In this document: in pieces, positions 7,197-60,400 of the stretch
Position numbering within the stretch: the stretch's first letter is position 1
Layout of the letters: the number at the start of each line of letters is the position of its first letter
Assembly (NCBI GenBank): GCA_963930775.1
Contig: OZ005689.1
Span: forward strand, 558,001-622,000
Direction: 5' to 3'
DNA from: Cliona cf. orientalis
Taxonomy: Eukaryota; Porifera; Demospongiae; Clionaida; Clionaidae
Length of the DNA stretch: 64,000 nt
The notes under the pieces: generated by a model
Seen by the model: only the letters and a program-made list of their open reading frames with translations
Databases searched by the model: none
What the model was told of the DNA's origin: nothing
Made by a program: the position numbers and the translations under genes

Positions 7197-9449
7197 TTAA
7201 AAAAAAGCAAATTCTACTGAATTAATCATGATCTCTCCAATAGTGCATCCTCCTACCACCATCAGTTGGTTATTAGGGAGGACAGCTGCAATACAGTCAT
7301 GTCGTGGTGTCCCCATGTAACTAATGATCTCCCAGGAGTCAGTGGTTAGGCTGTACATGTGAACAGCCGAGGTGGGTTTCTGATCCAAATCCTCTCCACC
7401 GATTGCCAGCAGTTGACCATGAATGGACACACAAGTGGTCTCTGTGACTGGTGGTGCAGCAACTTCCTTCCATACTCTAGCACCTCTGTTCCTGAAACTG
7501 GCTAGAAATAACTTACAGGATTGGAGGAGGGCTTGTAAGGAACATGTGTACATGTTAGACCCCCCCAGGATGTAAACCTGATCACCACAGACTGATGATG
7601 GAGCAAACTTCACTGGTTGAGGTAGATCAGCAGCAGTAGACCACTGGTGAGTTTTAGTGTTCATCACTTCAACTGTTCGTAGCATAGATTCATCATTTTC
7701 CCCTCCTGCTACGATTAGAGCTGCTTCAGTGCACAGTACAATAATCCCACAACGCTTCGTTGGCATGGGTGGGAATTTTACACTCCACCTTCTATCATTG
7801 CCCTCCCCAGTGAGGCTGAATAGCTGATTGGTTAGGGTATGTCCAATATAACTACGACCACCAACAATAGTGAGGAGGTTGTTGATTATCACAGAATGAC
7901 AGCTATAAGTAGGGCTATCTGGAAGTTGATCCCAGCTGGAGGTGCTGATAGTGTAACAAAATGCCTGACGTACTGTTACAACATACAGAGTACTGCTATC
8001 CACAGCTGCACAGTATGATCCACTCATCATATATAATGATTTCTCCCCCTCCCTCCATGTCAGCGTGATGGTGGTTCTCTGCTCTTTGCCACTGGATGAT
8101 GCATCTGTGGCTGGTCTCAGTTGCTCTAGTTCAGCAATTCGTCTCTGAAATTGAGCATTAACACCTTCACTCTCTTCCAGCTGCTGGTTGACATGTCCCA
8201 GCAGTCTCTCTAGTCGATCAATCTCCTCAACTTTCTCCGTCAGTTCTCTCTCCTTTTCTCCTAATTGCTGCTGTATTTGTTCTCTCAGCTGATCTATTGT
8301 TTCATCTTTTTCTTTCAGAATTTGATTATTTTGTGCAATAGATTGCTCTTTCTGTGCGATAATTTGTTCTTTTTCAGCTAAGAGACTTGTTTCTGATTGA
8401 ATAATTTGTCGAAGGCCTTGAACCTCTTGACTATGTTGCTGTCTCAGTGATCTTAGTTCCCTGTCTCTCTCATTACTTCTATCCAGCTCCGCTGTGCTTC
8501 TTGCTTCAATCACCCTCACACTCTCACTGTACTGTAGATCTTCTTTCAGAGCTGCTACGCTTCCACAGAGCTGCTGAGCTGAGGGGCGTTCAACATCCTT
8601 ATCCTTTAGGCAGTCAAGGGCAATTCGTTTGAGGGGATGGTCTGGATCAATTTCACCAATGTGGTTCTGCCGTCGCTCTATTTCTGGTACACACAGTTTC
8701 ACAGCACCTTCAGGATAATGTGGATCATCGAGTGTTACCAGCCGATCTCCAGGTTTAGGAAACTGTCGTATTATAATCTGGACAGCGATGACACCAAATG
8801 AGAAGCAGTCAATCTTCTCTGTGTATACTGGGTTATCTTGAACAGCTTCTGGAGGCATGTAGACATCAGTGCCTGGACACATTGTGAAGGTAGGATTAGT
8901 TGCTCGTGGGTTTTGATCTCCCAGCCGTGCCATTCCAAAGTCGGTCACTTTGGCTCTTACGTTACCAATCAGCAATACATTGTTGCTGGAGAGATCTCTG
9001 TGGACGATGCCATTGGAGTGGAGAAATGAGAGAGCGAGGGTGATGTCATGGGAGATGTTGACTTGGATGTGGTAGGGGATTGGCTGTGGGGAACTTTCCA
9101 GAAAGTGGGTGAGGCTATCGTCCATCAGCTCCATTAGAAGTGCTGGGAGGCCAGTGTCAGGATCGCGATAAATACCCAGATATTGGACAATATTTGGGTG
9201 TCTTATGGTGCTTAAGAACTCACACTCTTGCTCAAACCTCCTCATTGGTAGCCTGTGCTCTCTCTGAGTTGCTATTAGCTGCTGTGCGGTTGGATCAAAG
9301 AGAGTTTCGTGTATGAGTTTAGCAGCACAGAGGAGGTCATCACATTTTGCTCTACACACTTTTCCATATGATCCAATACCGAGGTTTTGATCTTTGAAAA
9401 CAATGATACTTTTGAAGCCAGCCTTCTTCTGCTGCTGTTGTCCATCCAT
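7197..9449 (-). CDS. Kinase - coiled coil - Kelch protein (copy 1)
   Basis: Intronless, 750 aa, no signal peptide or membrane segment. Kinase domain about 20-295: glycine loop GIGSYGKV (24-31), ATP-anchoring Lys44 in CAAKL, catalytic HRDLSSNN (150-157), DFG (170-172) and a PPEA activation-segment end near 199-202. All residues needed for activity are present; the overall look is TKL-like (tyrosine-kinase-like Ser/Thr). A heptad-rich coiled coil follows (about 305-455, EKDETIDQL-type repeats). Kelch blades follow (about 475-750), with GG pairs in TIVGGR, IVAGGE, YILGGS, AIGGED and VVGGCT. It probably phosphorylates partners captured by the Kelch propeller, but the substrate is unknown. It differs from the 45-64 kb copies in its N-terminus (MDGQQQQKK), and no DYRK-derived sequence was seen in its upstream flank. 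Confidence 0.9.
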   Translation of the reverse strand: MDGQQQQKKAGFKSIIVFKDQNLGIGSYGKVCRAKCDDLLCAAKLIHETLFDPTAQQLIATQREHRLPMRRFEQECEFLSTIRHPNIVQYLGIYRDPDTGLPALLMELMDDSLTHFLESSPQPIPYHIQVNISHDITLALSFLHSNGIVHRDLSSNNVLLIGNVRAKVTDFGMARLGDQNPRATNPTFTMCPGTDVYMPPEAVQDNPVYTEKIDCFSFGVIAVQIIIRQFPKPGDRLVTLDDPHYPEGAVKLCVPEIERRQNHIGEIDPDHPLKRIALDCLKDKDVERPSAQQLCGSVAALKEDLQYSESVRVIEARSTAELDRSNERDRELRSLRQQHSQEVQGLRQIIQSETSLLAEKEQIIAQKEQSIAQNNQILKEKDETIDQLREQIQQQLGEKERELTEKVEEIDRLERLLGHVNQQLEESEGVNAQFQRRIAELEQLRPATDASSSGKEQRTTITLTWREGEKSLYMMSGSYCAAVDSSTLYVVTVRQAFCYTISTSSWDQLPDSPTYSCHSVIINNLLTIVGGRSYIGHTLTNQLFSLTGEGNDRRWSVKFPPMPTKRCGIIVLCTEAALIVAGGENDESMLRTVEVMNTKTHQWSTAADLPQPVKFAPSSVCGDQVYILGGSNMYTCSLQALLQSCKLFLASFRNRGARVWKEVAAPPVTETTCVSIHGQLLAIGGEDLDQKPTSAVHMYSLTTDSWEIISYMGTPRHDCIAAVLPNNQLMVVGGCTIGEIMINSVEFAFF

Positions 9450-24738: not shown

Positions 24739-25599
24739 GTGTAGCTCTACTTATAGGCTACAAAATTGTGTGCTAGAATGGCAAAAGTGCTGCAAAGCAC
24801 GCAGAGCATGTGCTCCAGAGAGCTGTAGTAGTCGTAGCGATTCAATCATAATGTAGCGAACCTTTTTTTGTCTGACTCAGCAAATGATGTTTCTAGTATT
24901 CCCTAAAATGGACATGTACTCCTAGAGCTATACTACTCATCAAATTAGCATTTCTAGCCCCCTGAATTTGCAAACTATCCAGAGTTATGACATAAACAGG
25001 TATGTATAATGCCACAATAATGTAGTTGATAAATTATTAGTGAGGCATTATATACATGCATGGGCTATGGGCTGCTGAAGACCGATGAATGATCAATGTG
25101 TAAATATAAATCACACATGATGTTTTAATGCATTCATGCACCCATTTTAATAAAGCAGTGTCAGCATCTCAACTCAGATATTCATCAATTTTAGACTTGC
25201 ACCTCGGGATTTTTAAAGCTTGCATGATGCTCCTGGTCTGCTCTTTGCACTGTTAAATGTAGAGCATGCGCAGGTACAATTTATTGGACCTGCATGTACG
25301 CCACACTCCTCGAGCTCACTGCAGGCAGTAGGTACATTGTAAGAGGGTCAGAAAGACTGGTGATGTTCTTGTTCCACTCGAACGTCGATACTATAGTGCA
25401 GGATGATCTAAATAGGTACGACAGAAAAATAGTTACCCAGTCCAGCTTGCGTAGTCTTGCTGGCCAGTGACGTTCTCGCTTTGCTCCAATGTCGATAATA
25501 ATATATAATATAGTACTGGTCTCTTTAAATTTCGATAAATCAGCAGCTCAGCTGCCATACTCTCCATAGCAGCTTGGCAAAAAAAAAAAAAAAAAAATA
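24739..25599. other. Intergenic, no gene recognised
   Basis: AT-rich spacer between the Penelope-like element and the kinase-flank relic. A 19-nt A run lies at 25579-25597, at the edge of the relic copy. Confidence 0.3.
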
Positions 25600-26800
25600 G
25601 AAAAACAGTGTATTTTGGGAAAATTAGGTATAGTATACAACAAATTTCAAGTCCCAAACTAGAGATACACTGTATATCAACACAATGTCATAATAATTAA
25701 AATTTTATTATAGATTAAATAATAACACAACGTTGCATAAATTCTAATAAAGCAAAAGAAAAACACTACTCAGCGCTATTAAGGCCTGGGTCAGTGTGGG
25801 ATGCATGGTATTTACTGACAACTTGAATGCTGTATATTTCAGCATCAGTACATCCTATGAACTTCTGTTATGCATCAACAGAAAGTTTGATCTTCACCCT
25901 TTCTTGTAATTAAATTATGTTAATTAATTCCGGGCCATGACGTCACAGTGGGCGTGGTCATGAATGTATGTTTGTAAACAAAATCGAAAAAGGCGGCATA
26001 TATGCACGGGTCTGAGGCCGACCTTAACAATTCCATGCAGTTCATATCATAGTGTACTAACATCTCACAGTATAGATTAGCTAGCTATTACTTACGTTTC
26101 GAGAAATGGCGTGAAATGTACATTCTTGGGTGTATCCAACAGCATAGTTCGTATTGAAACTCAGCGATAGTAGGTTCTTTCACAAATCTACACTGTGATA
26201 TTATAAAACTACTTGATCTTAACCTATCTAGCCTCTCAACTTGATCTCCAGTCCTCTCTTTATATGCCGCCTAGCTGTACTACTACTAACTAGCTAACTG
26301 CAGCTCATTCGTCATGTGACCGAGTGGCCACGCCCACTTCAATAATTCAGTTTTTGAACAATTCTGGTCAAAATCGAGCAAGTCAGACGGTCTCTACTGC
26401 TGAAATCAACACAGGTAAGCTACTAAACATAGCGCATGTCACAATAATAGGACAATACAGCTATAAGAGCGAGAATATGATCGCTCGCTATTGTTTACTT
26501 GGCACGGTCGGTCATATGACCACCGTAGTTACCATAGAAACAAGTTCATGAATATGATTAACCCTTGCCCGTACGTGACCCAGGCCTTAACTGCGCTGAG
26601 TACCTTAATCAGAGTTGACAACTACACTTGATCACATAGCTATGTAGCATAAAGAAGTGCAAGTGTAGCTAGCTAGCTATAAGACTGAGCGGAAAACGAT
26701 CTTTATGATAGCTAATTTGTTCTGTAGCTAAATGTGTAGTTAATATGCATAAGCAGATCTAAACAGCACCCACTAGAATCAACACCCCATCCAAAGTATA
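25600..26800 (+). repeat. Inverted copy of a kinase-Kelch upstream flank
   Basis: The plus strand at 25600-25768 and 26601-26800 matches, in reverse, the region upstream of the kinase-Kelch gene at 44827-47283. Shared words include ACAACAAATTTCAAGTCCCA, AATTCTAATAAAGCAAAAGA, GACAACTACACT, TGATCACATAGCTATGT and CAGCACCCACTAGAATCAA. The two halves are separated by a transposon (25769-26600). The coding relic at 26801-27016 continues directly. Confidence 0.8.
25769..26600. mobile_element. 832-bp TA-flanked inverted-repeat transposon
   Basis: Terminal inverted repeats of 25 nt with two mismatches (left begins CTCAGCGCTATTAAGGCCTG, right end is its reverse complement), flanked by TA at 25767-25768 and 26601-26602. 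The paralogous flank upstream of the 44.8-kb kinase gene reads straight through one TA (gcTAccttaatcag), giving an unoccupied-site comparison. No transposase was recognised inside; it is a non-autonomous Tc1/mariner-class element. Confidence 0.85.
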
Positions 26801-27016
26801 GAAGCAGATTACATTCAAACCATCCAACTTTTCAAAGAGCAGCCCTTGGTATTCGATCTTATGGAAAAGTGTGTAAAGCAAAATGTGATGACCTCCTCTG
26901 CTGCTATATACATGAAACTCTCTTTGATCCAACCATCCAGCAGCTAATAGCACTTCAGAGAGATAATAAGTTACCAATGAAGAGGTTTGAGCATTAGTGT
27001 GGATTCCTGAGCATAC
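26801..27016 (+). pseudogene. N-terminal relic of a kinase-Kelch gene
   Basis: Plus strand matches the first 80 or so codons of the kinase-Kelch genes (CAGATTACATTCAAACCATC, TCTTATGGAAAAGTGTGTAA, CATGAAACTCTCTTTGATCC, AAGAGGTTTGAGCA). The ATG region is deleted and the frame is broken by indels and a TAG after the RFE-H equivalent. It breaks off near 27016 and is followed by the second copy of the dispersed repeat. Confidence 0.85.
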
Positions 27017-32546: not shown

Positions 32547-39992
<7,446 letters not shown>

Positions 39993-41413
39993 GTAGTAGT
40001 ATTGTGTAGATTTTGTGTGCCCTGTGTGTGTGTGTGTGTGTGCTGTTTTGACAATGTATGTATCACTGAAACTATCACTATTACAATGTCATGATACCGG
40101 AGGTCAATCCATGGGGTTGTGGGGCATCCATCAGCTACTAAAAATATAATTATATCCTGATAAAGGCGTGAGCAAAAGTAGCTCACTCCTTGTATTAAAA
40201 TAATATCTCTGAAGATTAGGACCATTTTTGTAGCTAATCTTGATTACTATCATCTCTCCAGTAGCTATACATGTTGGGGGGGGAGGGGGGGGGGGGCTGG
40301 GATCTATAGCTATACAATAGAGTTGCCAGTACGCCAAGCACTAAATCTTGGGTACCGGTGCCGGTACGGTAGACACAGTGATATTAATTGCTGTGGCCTT
40401 ATTGCTGAAACGATTACCACATCCCTTAGTAGCCTCATTGTATGTGGTAAAGGGTCACTATGTATGTAAGCATGTAATGTTAAGTAATCGTCAATGCCCA
40501 TAACTTGAAAATGAAAACAGATGACAATATTTATAGAACTATTTTCCATACTAACCTGTATCTGTGCCAATTAGTGTCATGATTTGATACCTTTAATTAC
40601 TTTCAGAAAAGTAAATTGCTGCTAAGGGATGTAATTAAATTTTTATCTGCCAGATTTGAGCCTAATTATTATTACCAGTAGCTAGTAATAACAGGAGGAT
40701 AGTATAGCTATAGGCAAAGTAAATAACGTGTTGAGGCCCACTATTGGTGTTATAGTAGCTAATCTATTACGAACCTTTAGATGATAAAATTAATACTGCA
40801 ATCTGATTAGTCATCAGCGGGTAGCTATCTATATGTGATAGAATTCCTACAAATCCGCCCCAGAGAGCACAGTGTGCATGCATTAGAATAATTGAACCTT
40901 GACCCTGGAAACAGGGGCATAATCATACTACAGGCTGTGATGGTTCAGGGACTGCTTGCTAATTAAAATGGTTTTCAGTCACTGGAGGCAGACAGCCATC
41001 AATGAATGTTGGTTCCTCAGGCCTATTACCCGAGCTTGCCTATACCATGATAGGATCTGGAGACATAGATACGTTCATATGGAATTATCATGACCTCAAG
41101 ACATATGCGCGCGTCTCAGAGCACCCAAAATCTCAAAATTTTCTTGGGGGGCGGGGATGGGTGCCCACAGAACCCCCTAGGAGGAGCCACCTTATGGCGG
41201 CTGCCAACTAGGGTTGATAAAGAAAAATCATAGCACCCCCAAATCAAAAATTTTGTCTACGGCCCTTGTGGTAACTTGAAGCCCTTTGTTTCCTGTTTGT
41301 GGTTTAATATGTTTCCCGTTATATTGTATTTATGAACATGTTCTAAAATACTTGTGTCAGTCTATCATTGTTAATATCGTTCTTATGTCTTGAAATTTAC
41401 GATATAAATTGCA
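39993..41413. other. DYRK1 3'UTR and intergenic DNA
   Basis: The 3'UTR begins after 39992 and contains a (TG)n at 40024-40042. The 3'UTR sequence up to about 40090 is also present downstream of the DYRK fragment at 48602. A G-rich run lies at 40272-40297. The rest shows no recognisable gene. Confidence 0.5.
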
Positions 41414-42633: not shown

Positions 42634-43191
42634 ATGGGGCATTGAGGTATAACTTCACTCAATTGCAAGTAGCCACAGCACTATTAATAATTATACTGCT
42701 GCTACTTTAAACTATTAAGAAGAATCTCAAGAACTTCACTTGAAGGTAAGAAGTCCATTTAGCACATACAATACAAGGACCAATGACATGTATTATAGCC
42801 TATATTAGTCAGAAGATACTTAGTCTAGATGTGCATGGCTGGAATCTTGACCATGGAAACTTTTTAATTACAAAAATTCTAGGGCTGTATACAGTGCATA
42901 CATTGTACGAGGAATATAGCTTGTATTGTTATACATGCAAGCAGTATACCGCATATAGAAGCCACATCCCATCATATATAATAGCCACCCTCAAATACCA
43001 TAAAGTGACAAATTTATGCGTGAGATTTCGTAATAGCCACAGTTTAGCAAAGCTAAGATTAACAGCAGTTACGGATAGTACTAGCTAGCTATAATAATAT
43101 ATTCCAACAATAGAACATATAATATATCCATGATTGAGTAATGTATTATACATCAAATTTTGTTATCTACTCCACAGGTGTTCAGCTAGTT

Positions 43192-47283: not shown

Positions 47284-47474
47284 TGTTGTTGATAGCTATC
47301 CTAATACACTTTGGATGGGATATTGATTCTAGTGGGTGCTGTTTAGATCTGCTCATGCATACATACAGATCTAAGGGGATATTTTTGTAGCTACGGAACA
47401 AAATAGCTAGCTATCATGAGGATCGTTTTCTCCAGCAACTCAAAATAGTTATGTGGCTCGCTAGCTAGCTACGT

Positions 47475-47744
47475 ACGCTTGCACTTCCTTATGCATGTAC
47501 ACATAGCTATGTGATCGAGTGTAGTTGTCGATTCTGATTAAGGTAGCTAAAATGTTTTTCTTTTGCTTTATTAGAATTTATGCAACATCGTGGTATTAAT
47601 TTTAATCTATATACTTAGATTCAGTATTGATATACGGTGTATCTCTAGTTTGGGACTTGAAATTTGTTGTATAGCTAGCTACTAGCCCTAATCTTCCCAA
47701 AATATACTGTTTTTCTGTGTACAGCAAATTTCTCATTTTTTTAC
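47475..47744 (+). repeat. DYRK1 last-intron copy upstream of kinase copy 2
   Basis: Plus strand matches the DYRK1 intron at about 38230-38510: CGCTTGCACTT against cacttgcactt, GCAACATCGTGGTATTAAT against caacattgtggtattaat, TGTATCTCTAGTTTGGGA against tgtatctctagattggg, TTTCTGTGTACAG against tttcctgtgtacaag. It connects directly with a copy of the DYRK1 last exon. Confidence 0.75.
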
Positions 47745-48730
47745 CAAGCCGCTATGGCAGCTGCCGACTCATCAAATGGAGCATCTAACCACACTCTTCA
47801 TTCATATCGAACCATCATCATAGTACCATGATAGCATTGCTTGTGATCATTGACAATATCACATACAGTCGGCACAGTGTAGCACCACAGACATATTTGG
47901 TATAATATTATGGTGCCTCCCTCCACCCTCTGGGGGGCACTCGACCCCCGGGGACACTTCAACTGCAGCCCTGTCCAAGACTGGGCCCTGATGGGTCATA
48001 CTTATATTCCCATGCATCTTCCCCCTGGATCTTTCTCTTTTCATGGACACTTGGACAGTGTGCTTACTCCCCTCTTTCCTCCGCCGGCAGCCTCCCCCCT
48101 ATGTTAGGGGTACCCTACCCATACCACGGCTCAACACTCCCATGATCTTTCCCCTACCATTCATCCGTCTCTATGGCAATGGATACCTCTGCTGTGAACC
48201 TTGCACCCCAGCAACCAGGCATACTCGGGACACAAGTCCACCCCATGCCACTCAAAATGGATCACTGCTTTAGCACTAGTCGACTGTTTCAAGACTCTGG
48301 AACAACAGAACCATTCCAATTTATGTTTGACACATCTGGAGCTGGTGGCAGTGGAGTGGTTCACATACCCAGTGCAGGGGCACTCAACACTAACCCCTTT
48401 CATTTTCAATCATTAACAGCATCAAACGGACTTGGTGAAGCATCAACAAGAACTCGTAGTAAATCAGAACGTAACACTAGATTTCCTAGTTCTGTAGGAC
48501 TATCAGCCCATCACCAAGTTTCGGGTGTGGCGGCAGCCAATCAAAACGGACATAGAGAGTCAAATGACAAATCACCAATGATGGGCGTAGTTATTCAATG
48601 ATAAGAAGTAGTATTATTGTATAGATTTTGTGTGCCCTGTGTGTGTGTGTGTGTGTGTGTGTGCATGCGCGCGCTGTTTTGACAATGTATAATATGTATC
48701 ACTGAAATTATCACTATTAGATGACTGATG
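47745..48730 (+). pseudogene. DYRK1 last-exon fragment A with 3'UTR
   Basis: Copy of the DYRK1 C-terminal tail, missing the splice acceptor and about the first 100 codons of the last exon. It carries frameshifts in its first half. The final part is open from 48173 to 48601 and close to DYRK1 ([47 protein letters not shown]). It ends one residue early because DYRK1's final Arg codon CGA is TGA here. The 3'UTR with (TG)n is copied too. No kinase domain, so no catalytic function. Confidence 0.9.
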
Positions 48731-48884
48731 CAAAAAAAATAAATTCAATCTTACGTATAATCATGGGGCAACTACGAGTATAATATCAGATAGTCGAGAA
48801 TAATGCTGGATAATTTAATTTGCGTGTGCACAATATCAATAATATAACAACCAGATGTAGGGTTCACGTGGCATTGATGGTAAT

Positions 48885-51123
48885 TCATTCAACAGTAGCA
48901 AATTCTACTGATTTAGTTCCTATTTTTAGTACAACTTTACTTTTTGTAGTGAATCCTCCCACGACCATTAGTTGATTACATAAGACAGCAGCAATACATT
49001 CCTTTCGTGGTGTCTCCATATGGCTTATGACCTCCCAGGAGTCAGTGGTTGGGGTGTACATGTGAATGGCTGAGGTGGGTTCCTTGTCTGAATCCCTCCC
49101 ACCAACTGCTAACAGTCGGCCATGAATGGACACACAAGTGGTCTGTATGACTGGTGGTGCAGCAACTTTCTTCCATACTCTAGCACCTTTGTTTCTCAAA
49201 CTGGCTAGAAATGACTTGCAGGATTTGAGGAGGGCTTGTAAGGAACATGTGTACATGTGAAACTCGAGCTCCCTCAAGATATACACTTGATCACCACAGA
49301 GTGATGCTGGAGCATATGATAGTGGTTGAGGTAGATCAGCAGCAGTGGACCATTGAAGACTCCCTATGTCCATTACTTCAACAGTTTGTAGTGTAGATTC
49401 GTCATTTTTCACCTCCTGCTACGATTAGAGCTGCTTCAGTGCATAGTACAATTGTGCCATACCTCTTTGTTGGCATGGGTGGGAATTTCTCAGTCCACCT
49501 CGTACCACTGCCCTCCCCAGTGAGGCTGAACAGCTTGTTGGTGATGGAACGTGCACCACAGATGCGGCCACCAACAAGAGTGAGGAGGCTATTGATGATG
49601 ACTGAGGTGCAAAAGAAGGTAGGACTCCCTGGAAGCTGAGACCAGCTGGAGGTGCTGATAGTGTAACAAAATGTTTGATCAACTAGGACAACATACAATG
49701 AGCTGCTATCCACAGCTGCATGGTATGATCCACTCATCTCACACGGTGCTTTCTCCCCCTCCCTCCATGTCAGCTTGATGCTGGTTCGCTGCTTCTTGCC
49801 ACTGGATGATGTATCTGTGGCTGGTCTTAGTTGCTCCAGTTCAACAGTTCGTCTTTGAAATTGAGCAGTAACTTGTTCAAGCTGCTGGTTAACACATCCC
49901 TGCTGTCTCTTTAGTTGATCAATCCTTTCATTTTCCCCTGTCAGTTCTCTTTCCTTTTTTCCTAACTGCTGCTGTGCTTGTTGTCTTAGCTCAGCTATGG
50001 TTTCATCTTTTTGTACAATAATTTCCTCTTTCCGTGCGATAGTTTGATCTTTCTCTGCTAAGCAACTTGTTTGTGATTGAATAATCTGCTGAAGGATTTG
50101 AACCTGCTGACTATGCTTCTGTCTCAGTAATCTTAGTTCCCTGTCTCTCTCATCACTTCTATCCTGCTCTGCTGTATGTGTTGCTTCAACCACCCCCACA
50201 CTCTCATTGTACTGTGGACCTTCTTTCAGAGCTGCTACTTTTTCACAGAGCTGCTGAGCTGAGGGGCGTTCAACATACCTGTCTTTTAGGCAGTAGAGAG
50301 CAACTTGTTTAAGGGGGTGTTTTGGATCAATTTCACCAATGTGGTTTTGTCGTCGCTCAATCTCTGGTACAGGCACTTCGATTATTGGTGGCAATCCTGG
50401 TTGATTAAATTGAATTTCCTTTCGACGGTCTCCAGGTTTGGGAAACTGTCGTGTTACAATCTGAACTATGATGACACCAAATGAGAAGCAGTCAATCTTC
50501 TCTGTGTACACTGGCTTATCTTTGACAGCTTCTGGAGGCATGTAGGCATCTGTGCCTGGGCACATGGTAAAGGTGAGCGGAGTTGCTTGTGGGTCTTGAT
50601 CCCCCAATCTTGCCATTCCAAAATCAGATACTTTGGCTCTCACATTACCGATCAGCAACACGTTGTTGCTGGAGAGATCTCTGTGAATGATGCCATTGGA
50701 GTGGAGAAATGAGAGAGCGAGGGTAATGTCATGGCTGATGTTGACTTGGATGTGGTAGGGGATTGGCCGTGGGGAACTTTTCAGAAAGTGGGTCAGGCTA
50801 TCATCCATCAGCTCCATTAGAAGTGCTGGGAGGCCAGTGTCCGGATCTCGATAAATACCCAGATATTGGACAATATTTGGGTGTCTTATGGTGCTCAAGA
50901 ACCCACACTCATGCTCAAACCTCTTCATTGGTAGCCTGTGCTCTGTCTGAGGTGCTATTAGCTGCTGTGAGATTGGATCAAAGAGAGTTTCGTGCATGAG
51001 TTTAGCAGCACAGAGGAGGTCATCACATTTTGCTCTGCACACTTTTCCATAAGATCCAATACCAATGGTCTGATTTTTGAGAAGTTGGATGGTTTTGAAC
51101 GTAATCTGCTGCTGATGAGCCAT
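48885..51123 (-). pseudogene. Kinase - coiled coil - Kelch gene (copy 3), one-base frameshift
   Basis: Starts MAHQQQITF and runs intact for 573 codons (51123-49402) through kinase, coiled coil and the first Kelch blades. It then stops after IVAGGEK because an A run has five instead of four bases (T run 49405-49409 on the plus strand; intact copies read GGENDES). The remaining Kelch region continues open in the next frame to 48885 (DESTLQTVEVMDI onward). A single-base correction would give about 750 aa, so this is either a very young pseudogene or a sequence error. Kinase motifs are intact. C-lobe block is the NQPGLPPI type. Confidence 0.85.
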
Positions 51124-51369
51124 TTTTGATAGCTACCCTAATACACTTTGGATGGGGTGTTGATTCTAGTGGGTGCTGTTTAGATCTGCTTGTGCACAGA
51201 GGATATTTTAACTACACATGTAGCTATGGAACAAAATACACTATCATGAGGATCGTTTTCTCCAGTAACTCATAGTTTTGTAGCTAGCTAGTTAGCTACA
51301 CTTTGAACTTGTTTGTGTATGTACTTAATAATATGTGCTCAGTAGTAGTTATCGACTCTAACTAAGGTG

Positions 51370-52112
51370 AAGTGTTTTTGTTTTATATACTTAGATTCAG
51401 TATTGATATGCAGTGTATAATAATATCTAGTTTGGGACTTGAAATTTGTTGTATAACTAGCTACTAGCCCCAAACTAAATATTCCCAAAATATACTGTTT
51501 TTCTGTGTACAGCAAATTTCTAATTTTTTTACTAAGCCGCTATAGCAGCTGCCGACTCATCAAATGGAGCATCTAACCACACCCTTCATTCATATCGATC
51601 CATCATCATAGTACCATGATAGCATTGCTTGTGAAATTGGGTCTCATGCAATATTATATATACAGTCGGCACAGAGTTTAGCACCACAGACATATTTGGT
51701 ACATATGGTGTCTCCCTCCACCCTCTGGGGGGGGGGGGGGGGGGGGGGGGGGGGAGGCTCGATCCCCGGGGACCCTTCAACCGCAGCCAGTCTTATGGGT
51801 TGCACTAATACTTCCACGCATCTTCCCCCCTGGATCTCTCTCTTCTCATGGACACTATTCCAACTTGGATAGTGCGCTCACTCCACTCTTACCCCCATAG
51901 GCAACTCACCTTGGCCTCCCCTACACGAGAGGTACCCCATGGCTCACGATCTTTCCTCCACCATCCATCCGTCTCTGATACCTCTGTCATGAATCTTGCA
52001 CCCAGCTGTGCAACCAGGCATGCTCCTGTTGGAAATGATAGCCACAAGTCTACACTATATGCAACTCAAAATGGATCACTACCGCAACAGTTGTTCGGCA
52101 CTAGTATCAGTT
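51370..52112 (+). pseudogene. DYRK1 intron/last-exon fragment B
   Basis: Begins with DYRK1 intron-like sequence (AGTTTGGGACTTGAAATTTG, TTTCTGTGTACAGCAAATTT) and continues at about 51540 with the last-exon tail (GCAGCTGCCGACTCATCAAA). Many indels. The CTCTGGGGGG stretch of DYRK1 has become a 28-nt G run (51727-51754). Breaks off at TTCGGCACTAGTA near 52110, next to an inverted-repeat element. Confidence 0.85.
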
Positions 52113-52145
52113 GAGACTATTATTAATTTTTAGCAGCACATACAA

Positions 52146-52494
52146 TAGCGATTACAGACCTCCAAATTTCAGGCGGAACTTCTCCCAGTGGGATATCAAT
52201 GTTCGAGCATCAGAAGGTAGCTTTCCACAAGCTCTATCCAACGGCGCTCGTACGCGATCGTAGGCAAAACCGTTACGAAATCATGCCCACCTAAACTTTC
52301 TCCATAGAAACTTAATACAAGCAAAAATGAAGCTAGCGGCGATTGCACGGGACCGATTTGCAAGGTTAAGGCCTCGGTAGATAGCTTTTCATTGAGCTAT
52401 CTACTGCAATTTGTTTCTAAGTCATGAGTGTACTCCTAGCCAGAGCCGAGATATTCACGATCTACTGCAGGCCCTTGGAGGTCTGTAATCGCTA
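52146..52494. mobile_element. 349-bp inverted-repeat element with 7-bp target duplication
   Basis: Perfect 20-nt terminal inverted repeats (TAGCGATTACAGACCTCCAA and its complement). Flanked by identical CATACAA at 52139-52145 and 52495-52501. Interior non-coding. The duplication length excludes Tc1/mariner and does not fit an exact 8-bp hAT duplication, so the class is uncertain. Confidence 0.85.
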
Positions 52495-52705
52495 CATACA
52501 AGTGATCATGCATGAGGTCATCACATTATTAAAATTATTTGCCTTAGTATACACACTGCTCCATGAATTAAATCACACTAGGTTCCGCTGGAAGCTACTA
52601 AGTAATTATGAGCCATTATAAATGAATCAAGCAGTTTTTGTATACATATAGCTACATGAACTAGAGCTTCATAATTATTAGACTCTTGCTATAGGGATTG
52701 ACATA

Positions 52706-53081
52706 CCGTAGAATCCCGCGATTACGCCCCCCTCCCTCGCGCATAAGCCCACCCCCTGCATTTTTAGCTCAAGTTCCTGCATTGGTAGTTTTGTCTCGCG
52801 TATAAACCCCCCTGACTATAAAATGGACTCCATAAGTCAATAAAAACAGTAGCTACGGCTAGCAAACTATCACATGTACATCATGCCTTACTTCGTTGTT
52901 TTTCTTGAGCTTTGCCCATCAAACCGTAGCCAGAGAAAGTACAGAGATCGCGCGACCACGTGGCATTCGATGGTCGGTAATGGTCGTCACACGGAAATGT
53001 AAGAATCCCGCGTATAAGCCCCCTCCCCACTTTTGCCCAATCCAGTATGCACAAGGGGGGCGTATTCGTGGGATTCTACAG
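52706..53081. mobile_element. 376-bp TA-flanked MITE
   Basis: Roughly 28-nt terminal inverted repeats with about three mismatches (CCGTAGAATCCCGCGATTAC at the left; the right end is the complement of CTGTAGAATCCCACGAATAC), followed by a C run. TA on both sides (52704, 53082). GCG(T/C)ATAA(G/A)CCCCCC words recur internally. Tc1/mariner-class non-autonomous element. Confidence 0.8.
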
Positions 53082-53266
53082 TAATATCTTACACAATAAT
53101 ATGCTACTCATCTATTCTGCAATGGAGTATTATAATATTATTTATAATTAGGCTCAAATCTGGCTTGCAAATTAATAAAGAATTGTGTAACAATGATAGT
53201 GACAGACAATACTGGAGAGACAATAATTAGCTACATAATTAATGATCATTTTCATTGATCATACTA

Positions 53267-55540
53267 TTATTCTATGGAAGCGAATTCTACTGAATTAGTT
53301 GAAACACTGCCAATATATCCTCCCACTACCATCAGTTGGTTGTGAGGGACGACAGCTGCAATACAGCTGTATCGTGGTGTCCTCATGTGACTAATGACCT
53401 CCCAGGAGTCAGTGGTTGGGTTGTACATGTGAACGGCTGAGGTGGGTTTCCCATCTGAATCAACTCCACCAATGGCCACCAGCCGACCGTCATGAACAGA
53501 CACACAAGTGGTCAGTACGACTGGTGGTGCAGCAACTTTCTTCCATGACGTTGCTCTGGTTCCACCTAATACGGACCTATATGCTCGGAGTAGAACAGAC
53601 TTCTTGGATACAACAAGGGGTTGTAAGGAACATGTGTACATATTAGACTCCCCCACGATGATGTAAAGTTTATCACCACAGATTGATGCTGGAGCCCGGC
53701 ATACTGGTTGAGGAAAATCAGCAACCGTGGACCACTTAAGAGTCTCAGTGTTCAGCACTTCGACTATTCGTAACGGTACTAACGACCTGTTGTTAGTCTC
53801 CCCTCCAACTACAATCAGAGTTTTTCCAGTGCATAGTGCAGTTGATCCCTGCCGCTTTGTTGGCATGGGTGGGAATTCCTCAGTCCAACTCCTAACATCA
53901 ATGTCCTTCCCAGTGAGGCTGAACAGTTGATTGGTGATGGTATGACTACGATCCAAGCCACCAATAAATGTCAATAGGTTGTTGATGATGACAGAGGGGC
54001 AGCTTTCTGTTGGGCAGTCAGGAAGTCGAGACCATCTGGAGGTGCTGATAGAGTAACAAAATACACAATGAGTCACAGTTTGCCGAACATATAGTGCAGT
54101 ATCATCCACAGCAGCACAGTATGACTTGCTCATCTCACGCGGTGCTTCCTCTCCCTCCCTCCATGTCAGCTTGATGCTGGCTCTCTGCTCTTTGCTACTG
54201 GATGATTTATCGATGCCATGCCATACCTCAAATTCAGCAATATGTCTCAGAAATTGAGCATTAGCTCGTTCACTCTCTTCCAGCTGCTGGTTCACACGTC
54301 TCAGCTGCCTCTCTAGTCGATCAATATCCTCAATTTTTTCTGTCAGCTTTCTTTCCTTTTCTTCTAATTGCTGTACTTGTTCTCTAAGCTCAGCTATGGT
54401 TTCTGCATTTTGTGTAATGGTTTCATCCTTCTCTCTCAGTGTTTCCTCTTTCCGTGCAATAGTCTGATCCTTCTCTGCTAAGCGACGTGTTTGTGAATGA
54501 ATAATCCGTTGAAGGCCTTGAACTTGCCGACAATGTTGCTGTCTCAGCGATCTTAGTTCCCTGTCTCTCTCATCACTTCTATCTTGCTCTGCTATGCTTC
54601 TTGCTTCAACCACCCTCGCACTCTCACTGTACTGTGGACCTTGTTTCAGAGCTGATACTCTTTCACAGAGCTGCTGAGCTGAAGGGCGTTCAACATCCTT
54701 GTCCTTTAGGCAGTCAAGGGCAACTTGTTTGAGGGGATGGTTCGGATCAATTGTACTGATATGGTTTTGCCGTCGTTCAATTTCTGGTACACAGAGTTTC
54801 ACAGCACCTTGTGGATAGCGTGGATCATTGAGTGTTACCTGCCGATCTCCAGGTTTGGGAAACTGTCGTGTGACAATCTGGACAGCAACGACACCAAATG
54901 AGAAGCAATCAATCTTCTCTGTGTATACTGGCTTATCTTTAACAGCTTCTGGAGGCATGTAGACATCTGTACCTGGACACATGGTGAAGGTAAGCTGAGT
55001 TACTTGCGGGTTTTGATCGCCCAACCTCGCCATTCCAAAATCGGTGACTTTGGCTCTCACATTACCAATCAGCAACACGTTGTTGCTGGATAGATCTCTG
55101 TGGATGATGCCATTGGAGTGGAGAAATGAGAGAGCGAGGGTGACGTCATGGCAAATGTTGACCTGGATGTGGTAGGGGATCGGATGTGGGGAGCTTTCCA
55201 GAAAGTGGGTCAGACTATTGTCCATCAGCTCCATTAGAAGTGCTGGGAGGCCAGTGTCAGGATCTTGACAAATTCCCAGATATTGGACAATATTTGGGTG
55301 TCTTACGGTGCTCAAGAACTCACACTCTTGCTCAAACCTCCTCATTGGTAGCCTATGCTCTCTCTGAGTTGCTATTAGCTGCTGTGCAGTTGGATCAAAG
55401 AGAGTTTCGTGTATGAGTTTAGCAGCACAGAGGAGGTCATCATATTTTGCTCTACACACTTTTCCATATGCTCCAATACCAAGGGTCTGGTCTTTGAGAA
55501 GTTGGATGGTTTTGGATGTAATCTGCCCCTGATGAGCCAT
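53267..55540 (-). CDS. Kinase - coiled coil - Kelch protein (copy 4)
   Basis: 757 aa from MAHQGQITS; the reading frame extends four codons further (MLST), but the MAHQ start matches copies 2 and 3. The glycine loop is GIGAYGKV; CAAKL, HRDLSSNN, TDFGMAR and PPEA are present, so it should be active. The C-lobe block is the LNDPRYPQGAVKLC type, like copies 1 and 5. The Kelch part is the most divergent of the set (VRQTVTHCVFCYSISTSRWS, SKKSVLLRAYRSVLGGTRAT). If the propeller binds partners, its specificity probably differs. Confidence 0.9.
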   Translation of the reverse strand: MAHQGQITSKTIQLLKDQTLGIGAYGKVCRAKYDDLLCAAKLIHETLFDPTAQQLIATQREHRLPMRRFEQECEFLSTVRHPNIVQYLGICQDPDTGLPALLMELMDNSLTHFLESSPHPIPYHIQVNICHDVTLALSFLHSNGIIHRDLSSNNVLLIGNVRAKVTDFGMARLGDQNPQVTQLTFTMCPGTDVYMPPEAVKDKPVYTEKIDCFSFGVVAVQIVTRQFPKPGDRQVTLNDPRYPQGAVKLCVPEIERRQNHISTIDPNHPLKQVALDCLKDKDVERPSAQQLCERVSALKQGPQYSESARVVEARSIAEQDRSDERDRELRSLRQQHCRQVQGLQRIIHSQTRRLAEKDQTIARKEETLREKDETITQNAETIAELREQVQQLEEKERKLTEKIEDIDRLERQLRRVNQQLEESERANAQFLRHIAEFEVWHGIDKSSSSKEQRASIKLTWREGEEAPREMSKSYCAAVDDTALYVRQTVTHCVFCYSISTSRWSRLPDCPTESCPSVIINNLLTFIGGLDRSHTITNQLFSLTGKDIDVRSWTEEFPPMPTKRQGSTALCTGKTLIVVGGETNNRSLVPLRIVEVLNTETLKWSTVADFPQPVCRAPASICGDKLYIIVGESNMYTCSLQPLVVSKKSVLLRAYRSVLGGTRATSWKKVAAPPVVLTTCVSVHDGRLVAIGGVDSDGKPTSAVHMYNPTTDSWEVISHMRTPRYSCIAAVVPHNQLMVVGGYIGSVSTNSVEFASIE

Positions 55541-55689
55541 TGTTGATAGCAACCCTAATACACTTTGGATGCGGGGTGTTGATTCTAGTGGGTGTTATCT
55601 GCTCATGCATAGAGGATATTTAACTATACACATGTAGCTACAGAACGAAATACGCTAACAGACTAGCTATTTTCTTCAGCAATTTATGA

Positions 55690-56480
55690 TAGTTTTCTAG
55701 CTCTTCTTTTGAAAATTGTACATGTGATTAGTAGTTGTCAACTCTGATTAGGGTGAAGTTTTTCTTTCACTTTATCAGAATTTTTACAACATTATTAATT
55801 TCAATCTTTAGACGGTATAGTATTCAGTAACTATTGATTAGTGTATCTCTAGTTTGGGACTTGCATGGTTTGGATAACTGTTGCTAGGCCCAGATCAAGA
55901 TGTCAATCTAAAATTATCCTATGTAGCTACACTGGTTTTGTGTGTACAGGAAATTTTACCAGCCACTGTATACGGAGTGTATGGCAGCTGACGACTCATC
56001 AAAGAATGAAACGTAGCAACTAATCATGCCCCTCTTTCATATCGATCTGTCATACACCATGATAACTAGCATTGCTTGTGAAATTGGGCCACAATATCAG
56101 CACAGTATTGACGTATTGGTACCTCCCTCCATCCACTGGGGTCCCGGAGACCCTTCAGCTGCAGCCTGATGGGGCACACTAATATTCCCTAAGATCTTCC
56201 CCCCGGATCTCTCTTTTCTCATGGACACTATTCTAACTTGAACAGTGCGCTCACTCCCCTCTCCGAACTGCCCCCACTCCCTGCAGGCAACTCCCAACAT
56301 CCTCCCCCTACGTCAGCCTCAGATCGAGGTGCCATGGCTAGATGTTCCCACAATCCTCCCCCAACATCCATACACCTCTATGGCAATGGATACCTCAGCT
56401 GTGAACCTTGCACCCAGCAACCAGGCATACTCAGAAAAAATAGCCACCAGTCTACCCTTAGGGCCTGTGCTGCTCAATAC
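55690..56480 (+). pseudogene. DYRK1 intron/last-exon fragment C
   Basis: Intron-like part (TTTACAACATTATTAATTTC, TAGTGTATCTCTAGTTTGGG, TTTGTGTGTACAGGAAATTT), then last-exon tail sequence from about 55980 (ATGGCAGCTGACGACTCATC) through CACCCAGCAACCAGGCATAC to about 56480. Heavily degraded and the shortest in identifiable tail. Confidence 0.8.
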
Positions 56481-56879
56481 ATAGAGCTGAGCAAAACAAG
56501 CTTAGCTACAAGCTAATGACATATAGCTAACTAATATGTGAATTATAAGTTGTAGATATAGCTAATAATAGCAAGACTACAGACTAAACTGTATAATACG
56601 TATGCACTAGAACTTTATTACTGTCCGTGAATAAAATCATGGATTTTTACAAGCTAACACTCATGGATGGATTATTGTATAGTTTAAAATTGCAAATACA
56701 TGATCATGTCCCCCGTTGACCTTTAGTTGATAGCTAAGGCTATATTCCTTGAGACAGCACTGGCCACATGTCCTCCTGTAGTATTATATGAATGCGTGCA
56801 GCACATCTGCTATGATTGCTTCATGTACACAATATTCATGCAGTACGTCGGCTACAATTGCTGAAATTAATGTATACAA

Positions 56880-57560
56880 TATTAAAAACACTCTCTTCGT
56901 GGCATCCCCATGTGGCTCAGGAGTCAGTGGTTGGATTGTACATGGGAACGGCTGAAGTAGGTTTCTTATCTGAATCCTTCCCACCATTTGATCATGAATG
57001 GACACATAAGTGGTCTCAGTGACTGGTGCATGGTACAGCAACTTCCTTCCATACTCTATTCCTGAAATTGGCTGGAAATGACTTGTGGGATTGGATGAAG
57101 GCTAGTAAGGAACATATGTACATGTTACACTTCCCCCGGTCATGCTTATCATGCCAGATTGTGTGTGTGCACTGTCCATGCACAGCTATGATTCCACAAT
57201 CAGTGTTGTTTTTAACACACTGAAGAAACTCTCTTGTCAGTATCAGCAGGATAATCACTCCAAATGTGAGTCGATCAATCTGCAAGAGATCGATCACTAG
57301 ACGAAAATATGGTATAATAGTGCATGTATAGGATAGGGAAATTTTTTTACACATTTCATTTATTTTATAAAATCTGCCCTATCCTCTGACAAACATGTGT
57401 AGGAGAGGTCATGTTTTGGTAAGCATGACATAAGGAAATCTTAGTTTTGGTACGGTGATCACATGAAAGATCGAGGTCATCGCATTTCACCTGCACACTA
57501 CTCCATTATTATTACAATCCAGTACGTAGCGAGGATTTGAGGAGAGAATTAGAGTTATGG
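56880..57560 (-). pseudogene. Degraded kinase-Kelch gene
   Basis: The reverse strand contains, in the order expected for an intact copy but with large deletions, an N-terminal scrap near 57480-57550 (GTAGTGTGCAGGTGAAATGC), a kinase C-lobe scrap near 57210-57290 (QIDRLTFGVIILLILTREF against KIDCFSFGVIIVQIVTRQF), and a Kelch end near 56880-57130 (PVTETTYVSIH, matching PVTETTCVSIH). Stops and frameshifts throughout. A dead array member in the same orientation as its neighbours. Confidence 0.75.
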
Positions 57561-57669
57561 TCATATGGAATGCAAATTTGGTGTAGCATGCAAACCAGCT
57601 TAATATCATTATAAATTAGATGCAACCTAGAGAAATAATCTTCATGCAGCATCTGTTCTGGAATTTTAT

Positions 57670-59919
57670 TTATTCAATAGAAGCAAATTCTACTGAATTA
57701 ATCCCAACATCACCACTAGTGTATCCTTCCACCACCATCAGTTGGTTGTCAGGGAGGAGAGCTGCAATACAGTTGTATCGTGGGGTCCCCATGTGGCTAA
57801 TGACCTCCCAGGAGTCAGTGGTTGGGTTGTACACGTGGATGGCTGTGGTGGGATCCCCATCTGAATCCTCCCCACCAATTGCTAGTAGTCGACCATGAAT
57901 GGACACACAAGTGGTCTGTGTGACTGGTGGTGCTGCAACTTCCTTCCATAATCTAGCACCTCTAGATCTGTTCCTAAAACTGGCTAGAAATGATTTGCCG
58001 GATTGGAGGAGGGTTTGTAAGGAACATGTGTACATGGTAGACTCCCCAAGGATGTAAATTTGATCACCACAGACTGATGCTGGAGCTAACATAAGTGGTT
58101 GAGGTAGAGCAGCAGCAGTGAACCACTGGAGAGTCTCAGTGTTCAGCACTTCAACTTCTTTGAGTCCAGATACATAGTGTAGTACAGATTCATTATTTTC
58201 CCCACCTGCTACAATTAGAGCTGCATTAGTGCAGAGTACAATTGTCCCAGACCGCTTTGTTGGCATGGGTGGAAATTCTTCAGTCCACCTCCTACCACAG
58301 CCCTCCCCAGTGAGGCTGAACAGCTGATTGGTGATGGAAGCCTGTATATCATACCTACGGCCACCAACAAGAGTGAGTAGGTTCTTGATGACGACTAAGG
58401 TGCAGCTGTATGTAGGGCTGCCTGGAAGTTGAGACCAGCTGGAGGTGCTAATAGTGTAACAAAATACTCGAGGTGTTACTGTAACATACAGAGTACTGCC
58501 ATCCGTAGAAGCATTGTATGATCCACACATCTTACACGGTGCTTTCTCTCCTTTCCTCCATGTCAGCTTGATGCTGGTTCTCTCCTCCTTGGTACCAGAT
58601 GATGGTCTCAGTTGCTCTAGTTCAGTGATTTGTCTCTGAAATTGAGCATTAGCTCGTTCACTCTCTTCCAGCTGCTGGTTGACACGTCCCAGCTCTCTCT
58701 TTAGTCGATTAACTTTTTCTGTCAGCTCCCTTCCCTTTTCACCAAATTGCTGTACTTGTTCACTCAGCTCAGCTATGATCAGTGAATTTTGTGCAATTGC
58801 ATCATCTTTTTGTACAATGGCTTCCTCTTTCCTTGTGATAGTTTGATCCTTATCTGCTAAATGACTTTTTTGTGATTGAATAATCTGTTGAAGGCTTTGA
58901 ACTTCTTGACTATGTTGCTGTCTCAGTGATCTTAGTTCCCTGTCTCTCTCATCACTTCTATCCTGCTCTGCTGTGCTTCTTGCTTCAACCACCATCGCAC
59001 TCTCACTGTACTGTGGATCTTCTTTCAGAGCTGCTACTTTTTCACAAAGCTGCTGAGCTGAGAGGCGTTCAACATCCCTGTCCTTTAGGCAGTCGAGGGC
59101 AACTTGTTTGAGGGGATGGTTCGGCTCAATTGTACTGATGTGGTTTTGCCGTCGTTCTATTTCTGGTACACATAGTTTCACAGCACCTTGAGGATAGCGT
59201 GGATCACTGAGTGTTATCAGCCTATCTCCAGGTTTGGGAAACTGTCGTGTTACAATCTGGACTATGATAACACCAAATGAAAAGCAATCAATCTTCTCTG
59301 TGTACACTGGTTTGTCTTGAACAGCTTCTGGAGGCATATAAACATCTGTGCCTGGACACATGGTGAAGGTAAGCTGAGTTGCTCGTGGGTTTTGATCTCC
59401 CAGACTTGCCATTCCAAAGTCGGTCACTTTGGCTCTCACATTACCGATCAGCAACACATTGTTGCTAGAGAGATCTCTGTGGACGATGCCATTGGAGTGG
59501 AGAAATGAGAGAGCGAGGGTGATGTCATGGCAGATGTTGACCTGGATGTGGTGGGGGATTGGCTGTGGAGAGCTTTCCAGAAAGTGTGTCAGGCTATCAT
59601 CCATCAGCTCCATTAGAAGTGCTGGGAGTCCAGTGTCAGGATCTCGATAAATGCCCAGATATTGGACAATATTTGGGTGTCTTATGGTGCTCAAGAACTC
59701 GCACTCTTGCTCAAACCTCCTCATTGGTAGCCTGTGCTCTCGCTGAGGTGCTATTAGCTGCTGTGCAATTGGATCAAGGAGTGTTTCGTGTATGAGTTTA
59801 GCAGCACATGGGAGGTCATCACATTTTGCTCTACACACTTTTCCATAAGATCCAATGCCGAGGGTATCGTCCTTTAAAAGTTGGATACTTTTGAATGCCA
59901 TCTGTTTCTGTTGAGCCAT
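57670..59919 (-). CDS. Kinase - coiled coil - Kelch protein (copy 5)
   Basis: Intronless, 749 aa, start MAQQKQMAFKSIQLL. Kinase core GIGSYGKV, CAAKL, HRDLSSNN and DFG is intact. The Arg following DFGMA in the other copies is Ser here (DFGMASLGDQ), and CD-DLP replaces DDLL before the Lys. C-lobe block of the LSDPRYPQGAVKLC type. Coiled coil about 305-450. Kelch blades with GG in TLVGGR, IVAGGE, AIGGED; the last pair is VVEGY, one Gly lost. The upstream flank retains DYRK1 intron-like DNA, but no DYRK exon. Confidence 0.92.
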   Translation of the reverse strand: MAQQKQMAFKSIQLLKDDTLGIGSYGKVCRAKCDDLPCAAKLIHETLLDPIAQQLIAPQREHRLPMRRFEQECEFLSTIRHPNIVQYLGIYRDPDTGLPALLMELMDDSLTHFLESSPQPIPHHIQVNICHDITLALSFLHSNGIVHRDLSSNNVLLIGNVRAKVTDFGMASLGDQNPRATQLTFTMCPGTDVYMPPEAVQDKPVYTEKIDCFSFGVIIVQIVTRQFPKPGDRLITLSDPRYPQGAVKLCVPEIERRQNHISTIEPNHPLKQVALDCLKDRDVERLSAQQLCEKVAALKEDPQYSESAMVVEARSTAEQDRSDERDRELRSLRQQHSQEVQSLQQIIQSQKSHLADKDQTITRKEEAIVQKDDAIAQNSLIIAELSEQVQQFGEKGRELTEKVNRLKRELGRVNQQLEESERANAQFQRQITELEQLRPSSGTKEERTSIKLTWRKGEKAPCKMCGSYNASTDGSTLYVTVTPRVFCYTISTSSWSQLPGSPTYSCTLVVIKNLLTLVGGRRYDIQASITNQLFSLTGEGCGRRWTEEFPPMPTKRSGTIVLCTNAALIVAGGENNESVLHYVSGLKEVEVLNTETLQWFTAAALPQPLMLAPASVCGDQIYILGESTMYTCSLQTLLQSGKSFLASFRNRSRGARLWKEVAAPPVTQTTCVSIHGRLLAIGGEDSDGDPTTAIHVYNPTTDSWEVISHMGTPRYNCIAALLPDNQLMVVEGYTSGDVGINSVEFASIE

Positions 59920-60059
59920 CGTTGATTCCCTGATGCTATGTTGGATAGGGTGTTGATTCTAGCTATGCTGGTGGATGCAGTCTACTCACGTGTAGAGGAT
60001 ATTTTTATAACACATGTACGAAACAAAATACGCTATTATTTTCTTTAGCTACTTTTTAG

Positions 60060-60400
60060 CTACATACACTTGCGTTCTTTTGAAACTTAGTTACGTGATC
60101 AATCGTAGTTGTTGACTCTGATTAGGATGATTCAGAAGTGTTTTGATTTTTCATACGACATCATGGCATTACTTTTTAGGCGATATATTATTCATTCAAG
60201 TCAGTTTCGATTTGTTTATCTCTGGATTGGGATTTTGTTTTGATGATAATCAATAAACTGTTGTAGCTAGCTATATAGCTATATGAAAATGTTTGTTGAT
60301 CTAGAAAACTTCTCAATCAACAATTTTACCTGTGTACACAAAATGTCTGATTTCTTACTTAGCTACCGAGTGTAGAGAGCGATCTAGAATAAACACACAA
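60060..60400 (+). repeat. DYRK1 last-intron copy upstream of kinase copy 5
   Basis: Matches the DYRK1 intron at about 38230-38510 in order: TACACTTGCGTTCTTTTGAA, GTAGTTGTTGACTCTGATTA, TTTATCTCTGGATTGGGATT, TTGATCTAGAAAACTTCTCA, CCTGTGTACA. Unlike the three units at 47.5, 51.4 and 55.7 kb, no last-exon sequence follows. Confidence 0.65.

Follow-up and report, generated by a model that had tools for sequence, protein, structure and literature searches.

Where did the upstream DNA of a cluster of kinase-Kelch genes in a sponge come from? The question is raised by a 64,000-nucleotide stretch of the Cliona cf. orientalis genome (contig OZ005689.1, here C1, positions 558001-622000), which we refer to as the window. 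It contains a DYRK1 gene and an array of genes that combine a kinase with Kelch repeats, and pieces of DYRK1 lie upstream of several of them. The original prediction was that a kinase-Kelch gene had lain antisense in the last intron of a DYRK1 copy and that the composite was then amplified. Our analysis upholds the shared DNA and the amplification of a composite, but favors a different beginning. We propose a tandem duplication with a breakpoint in the DYRK1 last intron, followed by amplification of the resulting unit, in which the DYRK1 pieces would mostly be passengers. We put the probability of this reading at roughly 0.6.

Window coordinates are marked W (C1 = W + 558000). Regional analyses covered 264 kb with the window inside (C1:478001-742000), and the searched genome comprises 216.8 Mb in 149 contigs, for which the DNA searches were not exhaustive. 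Units are named after their C1 positions, copies 2, 3, 4 and 5 being 605283, 609123, 613540 and 617919. The DYRK1 gene and the four units of the window are laid out as follows (W coordinates).

34677..39992, + strand: DYRK1 gene, present once, given here from where its kinase part starts; the exon and intron pieces derive from it
~34677-34877, 35842-35994, 36195-36482, 37560-37838 and 38808-39992 (stop 39992), + strand: the five DYRK1 exons
38221..38540 (about), + strand: part of the DYRK1 last intron homologous to the distal upstreams of the kinases, from profile and intron-query matches
38527..39096 (limits good to tens of bases), + strand: DYRK1 stretch absent from the units, with the intron end, the splice acceptor and the kinase-coding start of the last exon
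39097..40147, + strand: exon tail of DYRK1 with the 3' end, from which the dead tails derive; profile homology extends to W40147
44827..47283, - strand: kinase-Kelch copy 2, open 818-codon frame
47284..47466, - strand: proximal upstream of copy 2, found only in this copy class and absent from DYRK1
47467..47729, + strand: DYRK1 last-intron piece of copy 2 (E=7.4e-9)
47774..48719, + strand: dead DYRK1 exon tail of copy 2, 83% to 39134-40083, with 12 frameshifting indels
48885..51123, - strand: kinase-Kelch copy 3, broken frame, two open reading frames (ORFs)
51123..51562, + strand: upstream of copy 3, 73% to the copy 2 upstream; intron origin by that homology only
51562..52105, + strand: dead DYRK1 exon tail of copy 3, truncated
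53267..~55540, - strand: kinase-Kelch copy 4, open frame
55697..55978, + strand: DYRK1 last-intron piece of copy 4 (E=3.3e-11)
55982..56458, + strand: dead DYRK1 exon tail of copy 4, truncated
57670..59919, - strand: kinase-Kelch copy 5, open 749-codon frame
60054..60381, + strand: DYRK1 last-intron piece of copy 5 (E=5.6e-7), with no exon tail after it

The last exon of DYRK1 matches human DYRK1A structures (E 7.6e-24). A genome-wide search with the penultimate exon returned 100% identity at the home locus and 61% for the next best match; judged by this exon, the genome holds one DYRK1. In the 264 kb, a DYRK1 kinase protein query found this gene and otherwise only the distant kinases of the kinase-Kelch genes.

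The homology of the kinase upstreams to DYRK1 was assessed with an nhmmer profile made from seven kinase upstreams (605283, 609123, 613540, 642698, 667538, 672230 and 685396), with DYRK1 excluded. In the 264 kb the profile matches the DYRK1 last intron at W38514-38242 (E=1.4e-19), and a second match in the same order, collinear with the first, falls in the DYRK1 exon at W39189-39097 (E=3.2e-11). The intron scores 66.3 bits, compared with 3.8 bits for the best of 500 dinucleotide shuffles of it. The intron alone as query recovers copies 2, 4 and 5 at the E values listed above. The same query gives nothing at E<=1 for the upstream of copy 3, to which an intron origin can be assigned only through its homology to copies 2 and 4. 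Ordinary blastn returns just short matches of ~50-77 bases for the intron part, which is too diverged. The distal upstreams of copies 2-5 are homologous to DYRK1 last-intron DNA, as had been proposed. The proposed location at 38.2-38.5 kb stands, with limits that are slightly wider.

The exon tail (W39097-40112) matches the units at 70-90%. Self-comparison of the window DNA places it upstream of copies 2, 3 and 4 and finds none at copy 5. W39134-40083 matches W47774-48719 at copy 2 (83%), W39134-39668 matches W51562-52105 at copy 3 (73%) and W39097-39621 matches W55982-56458 at copy 4 (71%), in each case on the + strand and antisense to the kinase. The claims that the exon follows in opposite orientation at copies 2-4, and that the order kinase (-), intron piece, exon (+) is constant across the units, are both borne out.

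Read in the orientation of the kinase, a unit consists of the DYRK1 stretch from 3' end to exon tail, reversed, the intron piece, also reversed, ~170 bp of non-DYRK1 DNA and the kinase ATG. The proximal 170 bp are common to 14 loci at E<1e-20, and have no significant match in DYRK1, in the other upstream class or in 8 copies from other contigs. The intron and exon pieces are spaced 2-52 bp apart in five units (605283, 613540, 642698, 667538 and 672230), compared to ~570-625 bp in DYRK1; in 609123, 685396 and 628302 the gap was deduced from homology or partial matches. W38531-39080 had been removed before the unit ends were jointly aligned, so that this alignment shows the fit of the ends only and the gap rests on the separate matches. 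Since five units have a similar gap, a single founding unit is likely, consistent with the predicted amplification of the composite as one unit with a shared order. For most units the tail homology starts at W39097-39134, for unit 628302 already at W39069.

Copies were counted from a tblastn list of 25 near-complete kinase-Kelch copies in the 264 kb. Shorter fragments were left out, as were three longer broken copies of the left arm (511311, 536071 and 553974), for which the profile search found no DYRK1-type upstream. Twelve of the 25 have a DYRK1-type upstream; these form class A, which was set from the upstream DNA prior to tree building. The profile also matches copies that did not contribute to it (617919, 676585, 628302, 638010 and 681112) and relics at C1:664506-665211, 583531-584800 and 710689-710964, and weakly at 709551-709731. 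Ten class A copies keep the exon tail antisense to the kinase. The tail lies within ~0.5 kb beyond the ATG in eight of the twelve, 638010 and 681112 have just a fragment of 160-180 bp farther out, and 617919 and 676585 have no tail. A 13th copy, 709228, has a weak upstream match (E=1.8e-4), and the remaining copies share a different upstream or none. The profile search found no DYRK1-type upstream at copy 1 or at the partial copy at the right end of the window (W63171-64000).

The pattern extends beyond the original prediction, to a reversed relic at W25531-26800 and along an array that continues to C1:711 kb. At C1:527718-528353 a tail stands without an intron piece and precedes a C-terminal kinase fragment, a locus that may be read as a unit with an internal deletion. 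The relic and the contrasting copy 1 are the following.

25531..27013, + strand: reversed unit relic; 832 bp lie between its upstream halves (25531-25768 and 26601-26800), and an N-terminal kinase fragment follows
7197..9449, - strand: kinase-Kelch copy 1, other upstream class, no DYRK1 piece

All of this is confined to one region. W38200-40100 has 16 matches in the genome including itself, all at C1:527-711 kb, which is the kinase cluster, and the upstream of copy 2 (W47284-47774) has 12 including itself, all at C1:583-686 kb. Intron W38100-38804 yields only its self-match in the genome DNA search, as expected from its 35-46% divergence. The 30-kb kinase cluster on contig C15 contains no DYRK1 piece and no match to the upstream profile at E<=1, and 8 loci with kinase copies from C15, C17, C14 and C4 likewise have no profile match at E<=1.

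What is directly observed here (homology, order, similar gap, a single DYRK1, locality, decay and conflicting coding trees, the last two described below) can be arranged into a history whose first step, we infer, was a tandem duplication. DYRK1 (+) and a kinase-Kelch gene (-) would have stood tail to tail. The duplicated segment would have begun at ~W38221 in the last intron, taken in the last exon with the 3' end, and ended ~170 bp beyond the kinase start on its upstream side. Through the new joint, DNA of the DYRK1 intron and last exon would have come to lie upstream of the kinase in antisense orientation. This DYRK1 piece, truncated at its 5' side, would then have lost ~570-620 bp and become a dead exon. 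Amplification of the unit and a later block duplication would have followed, with kinase bodies exchanged between copies of unlike upstream DNA and probable gene conversion between the dead tails and DYRK1.

A duplication in one step predicts right-arm units in which 5'-truncated DYRK1 pieces face the kinase tail to tail, as observed: the intact DYRK1 heads the right arm, tail to tail with kinase copy 2, and the units repeat that register. No DYRK1 DNA 5' of ~W38221 was found in units of the 264 kb. In unit T605 only ~165 bp separate the tail end from the next kinase stop, and most of W40290-43030, between DYRK1 and copy 2, consists of dispersed repeats or DNA related to contig C6 (W43140-44826 lay outside the genome-wide search). 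A short original spacing between DYRK1 and the kinase gene is therefore plausible.

Several observations pull the other way. The duplication joint is unreadable, and the proximal 170 bp match neither DYRK1 nor the other upstream class. The rightmost kinase would be expected to have its native upstream; copy 713855 is without the class A type, and its native status is that of a candidate only. The reversed relics at W25531-27013 and C1:527718-528642 require extra inversions. The passenger argument is weakened by copy 605283, for which 3 of 7 pairs show more divergence in the proximal region than in the intron piece. As to conversion, only 1 of 7 tail windows has both sister tails T643 and T686 (of units 642698 and 685396) nearer to DYRK1 than to each other, and the last window places T686 closer to T643 (9/100) than to DYRK1 (12/100). 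A distal relic at C1:710-711 kb was considered as a unit keeping DYRK1 3' flank, but the match (C1:711155-711433 to W40412-40635) is a dispersed repeat present on many contigs and lends no support.

The nested arrangement of the original prediction, a kinase-Kelch gene inserted antisense in the DYRK1 last intron with the composite amplified and the other host half lost, would give the same order of kinase (-), intron piece and exon (+). We nevertheless regard it as unlikely. Host sequence should then stand on both sides of the kinase, with the intron's 5' half or the penultimate exon following the kinase 3' end; in the 264 kb neither these nor the other DYRK1 exons were found beside any kinase. 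The matches of W32000-38240 in this region are short, repeat-like stretches out of register with the kinase 3' ends. Over 169 bp the 3' flank of copy 2 is 71% identical to that of a left-arm copy from the other upstream class, so that for this length it is an ordinary kinase 3' flank. Only one DYRK1 is present, judged by the penultimate exon, and nothing in its last intron matches the kinase-proximal upstream on the strand expected. The nested gene needs an insertion, a second host copy or a later loss, and the loss of the other host half, while a simple tandem duplication gives the same order in fewer steps. This part of the prediction was not supported.

It is also conceivable, though improbable, that the transfer ran in the reverse direction, the DYRK1 last intron having received old kinase upstream DNA, so that the shared sequence would be a kinase promoter. 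The polarity of the intron piece alone is unreadable from one genome. However, on the same side the shared stretch runs collinear with the coding exon and 3' end of DYRK1, and the 170 bp next to the ATG are absent from DYRK1. The sequence is moreover absent from the other upstream class of the region, from the 8 copies of other contigs and from the 30-kb kinase cluster, and was not found elsewhere in the genome search. A shade less probable again is that several kinase copies each captured DYRK1 pieces on their own. Unit 628302 would fit such a capture, with slightly different limits and a far more diverged intron piece, but recapture at the same points is improbable for five units with nearly the same gap and 14 loci with the same proximal 170 bp. 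That the matches are a generic dispersed repeat is hardly credible: such repeats are frequent nearby, for example in the DYRK1 3' flank, yet the matches to the copy 2 upstream (12) and to W38200-40100 (16) all fall in the two C1 intervals given above and none in the C15 cluster, so that this proposed refutation, checked by the non-exhaustive genome-wide search, did not succeed. A DYRK1 retrocopy does not fit, as the copies contain intron DNA.

The DYRK1 exon copies have decayed. Each of 9 tails contains 8 to 31 frameshifting indels relative to the DYRK1 frame, identifying the tails as dead exons; the count for T643 is inflated by an internal inversion. Its inner part (C1:643590-643847) is inverted relative to DYRK1. 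T686 is interrupted near W39190 by an insert of ~180 bp (C1:685861-686045), in which a fold-back inverted repeat can be seen by eye in the alignment and which looks like a small DNA transposon.

The two DYRK1-derived parts of a unit differ in their distance from the source. In all 8 units compared with DYRK1, divergence is higher in the intron piece (35-46%) than in the tail (10-21%; Fisher p 7e-5 to 9e-28). When unit 628302 is set against three other units, the intron piece differs by 45-50% and the tail by 13-16%; among those three closer units the values are 12-16% and 10-14%, with a difference in 1 of 3 pairs (p=0.02). If the pieces arrived together, the lower divergence of the tails indicates that they have been partly reset, and we infer gene conversion from DYRK1 as the likeliest cause. 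Selection on the dead tails is unlikely because of the indels. The sister tails T643 and T686 are 4/129 apart at W39110-39259 and 20/132 and 21/129 from DYRK1, while at W39860-40009 they are 6/150 and 3/150 from DYRK1 and 9/150 from each other. Of 5 tails, 2 show a significant drop in divergence along their length (T628, p=1e-5; T686, p=0.001), and T605, T668 and T643 do not. Dead copies of the DYRK1 last exon thus stand beside the real exon with signs of sequence exchange. A stronger proposal, that the DYRK1 last exon and 3' end are in continuing conversion with at least 8 dead copies and that these blocks keep the array recombining, is doubtful in our view. If true, a conserved single-copy regulator, DYRK1, would be linked to the growth of a fast-evolving kinase-Kelch family in which the gene bodies move between upstream cassettes.

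Does the DYRK1-derived DNA serve as a promoter? Among three close units, the intron piece and the dead tail have diverged at about the same rate. The proximal 170 bp are less diverged than the intron piece in 24 of 28 pairs, which are non-independent, more diverged in 3 and tied in 1; all three pairs with the more diverged proximal region involve copy 605283. Judged by the lower divergence of the proximal region and by an intron piece that behaves like the dead tail, the proximal 170 bp would be the core promoter and the DYRK1 pieces most likely passengers. The divergence pattern speaks weakly against the DYRK1-derived region being a new promoter with new expression.

The array has been reshaped since. 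A block duplication relates 606.8-618.9 and 634.8-643.2 kb to 665.2-685.9 kb of C1 at 88-96% identity, as a result of which 10 of the 12 class A copies form five pairs. The recent block pair C1:611095-618879 (W53095-60879) and C1:669782-677541 is 94% identical in DNA; the proteins of its kinase copies, 615673-617916 and 674339-676582, reach 99% identity. A single clade of the 12 class A copies is rejected by the AU test (p=2e-7 for the kinase part, 2e-4 for the Kelch part). Well-supported Kelch groups mix the upstream classes: 642698 and 685396 group with 623590, 609123 and 667538 with 713855, and 613540 and 672230 with 634182. As the coding trees disagree with the upstream class, gene conversion or crossing over has probably moved kinase bodies from one upstream type to another. 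Within the array, the history of the upstream cassettes is separate from that of the coding bodies.

Seven of the 12 class A copies have an unbroken frame from the ATG. Among these seven, dN/dS is 0.14-0.30 in the kinase part and 0.48-0.77 in the Kelch part, each over 20 of 21 pairs (for the kinase part, one pair was too similar). The open class A copies look like maintained genes in which the Kelch part changes faster.

The nearest precedent for such an origin is Sdic of Drosophila melanogaster, described as arising by duplication and fusion of neighboring genes, with promoter elements from an exon and an intron and with tandem copies lying between the intact parents (PMC3395120). The likeness to that description lies in a duplication of two neighbors followed by deletions, which yields a unit with upstream DNA from one gene's intron and another's exon and is followed by tandem amplification. 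In the sponge, both parents stand beside the cluster (the intact DYRK1 at W34677-39992 and adjoining kinase-Kelch genes), and the upstream of the amplified gene comes from a neighbor's intron and exon. In structure, the array would accordingly be counted among Sdic-like cases. The two differ in that the Sdic intron is described as coming from the gene that supplies the coding region, whereas here intron and exon both come from the neighbor and are antisense to the kinase. The fused Sdic promoter is reported to be testis-specific, while our unit is read from DNA sequence; the Sdic copies are given as almost identical and under 2 million years old (PMC3395120), and the kinase units are far more diverged from each other. 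In Drosophila yakuba, tandem duplications are reported to change expression via shuffled regulatory elements and chimeric structures (PMC5460883). That report describes a population sample with RNA data, as opposed to the repeatedly amplified, diverged unit considered here. Set among Sdic-type cases, this one has an antisense layout and many copies. This is an uncommon yet precedented route to the upstream DNA of a gene family. The array offers a clear many-copy case in which the family's distal upstream is a truncated antisense piece of a conserved neighbor, explained most simply by the position of a duplication breakpoint.

The kinase-Kelch family extends well beyond this locus. Genes with a kinase, a coiled coil and Kelch repeats in intronless single frames give at least 70 matches (60 of 1679 candidates scored), which lie on contigs C1, C3, C4, C14, C15, C16, C17 and C18, several of them in clusters. 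Over 90 of 91 pairs of 14 intact C1 copies, the median dN/dS is 0.22 in the kinase part and 0.55 in the Kelch part. This could be a recognition-type family. Kelch-motif genes are listed in tables from a sponge immune-challenge study (PMC6208332), and in the literature searched no title was recognized as describing this kinase-Kelch family.

Further features of the window were noted. The DYRK1 3' flank (W40293-43030) contains dispersed repeats near 40293-40396, 40407-40645 and 40857-41267, and its stretch at ~41790-43030 has relatives of 70-77% on contig C6 and adjoins a 183-codon ORF at 43141-43692. At W1182-1460 a kinase N-terminal fragment lies on the + strand, ~87-92% identical to the same part of other copies. 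W13811-16867 is a large open frame with Pfam matches to a right-handed beta-helix and to chlamydial-type PMP repeats. The adjoining 611-codon frame at W11879-13714 has no Pfam match and shows, by eye, several membrane-spanning stretches.

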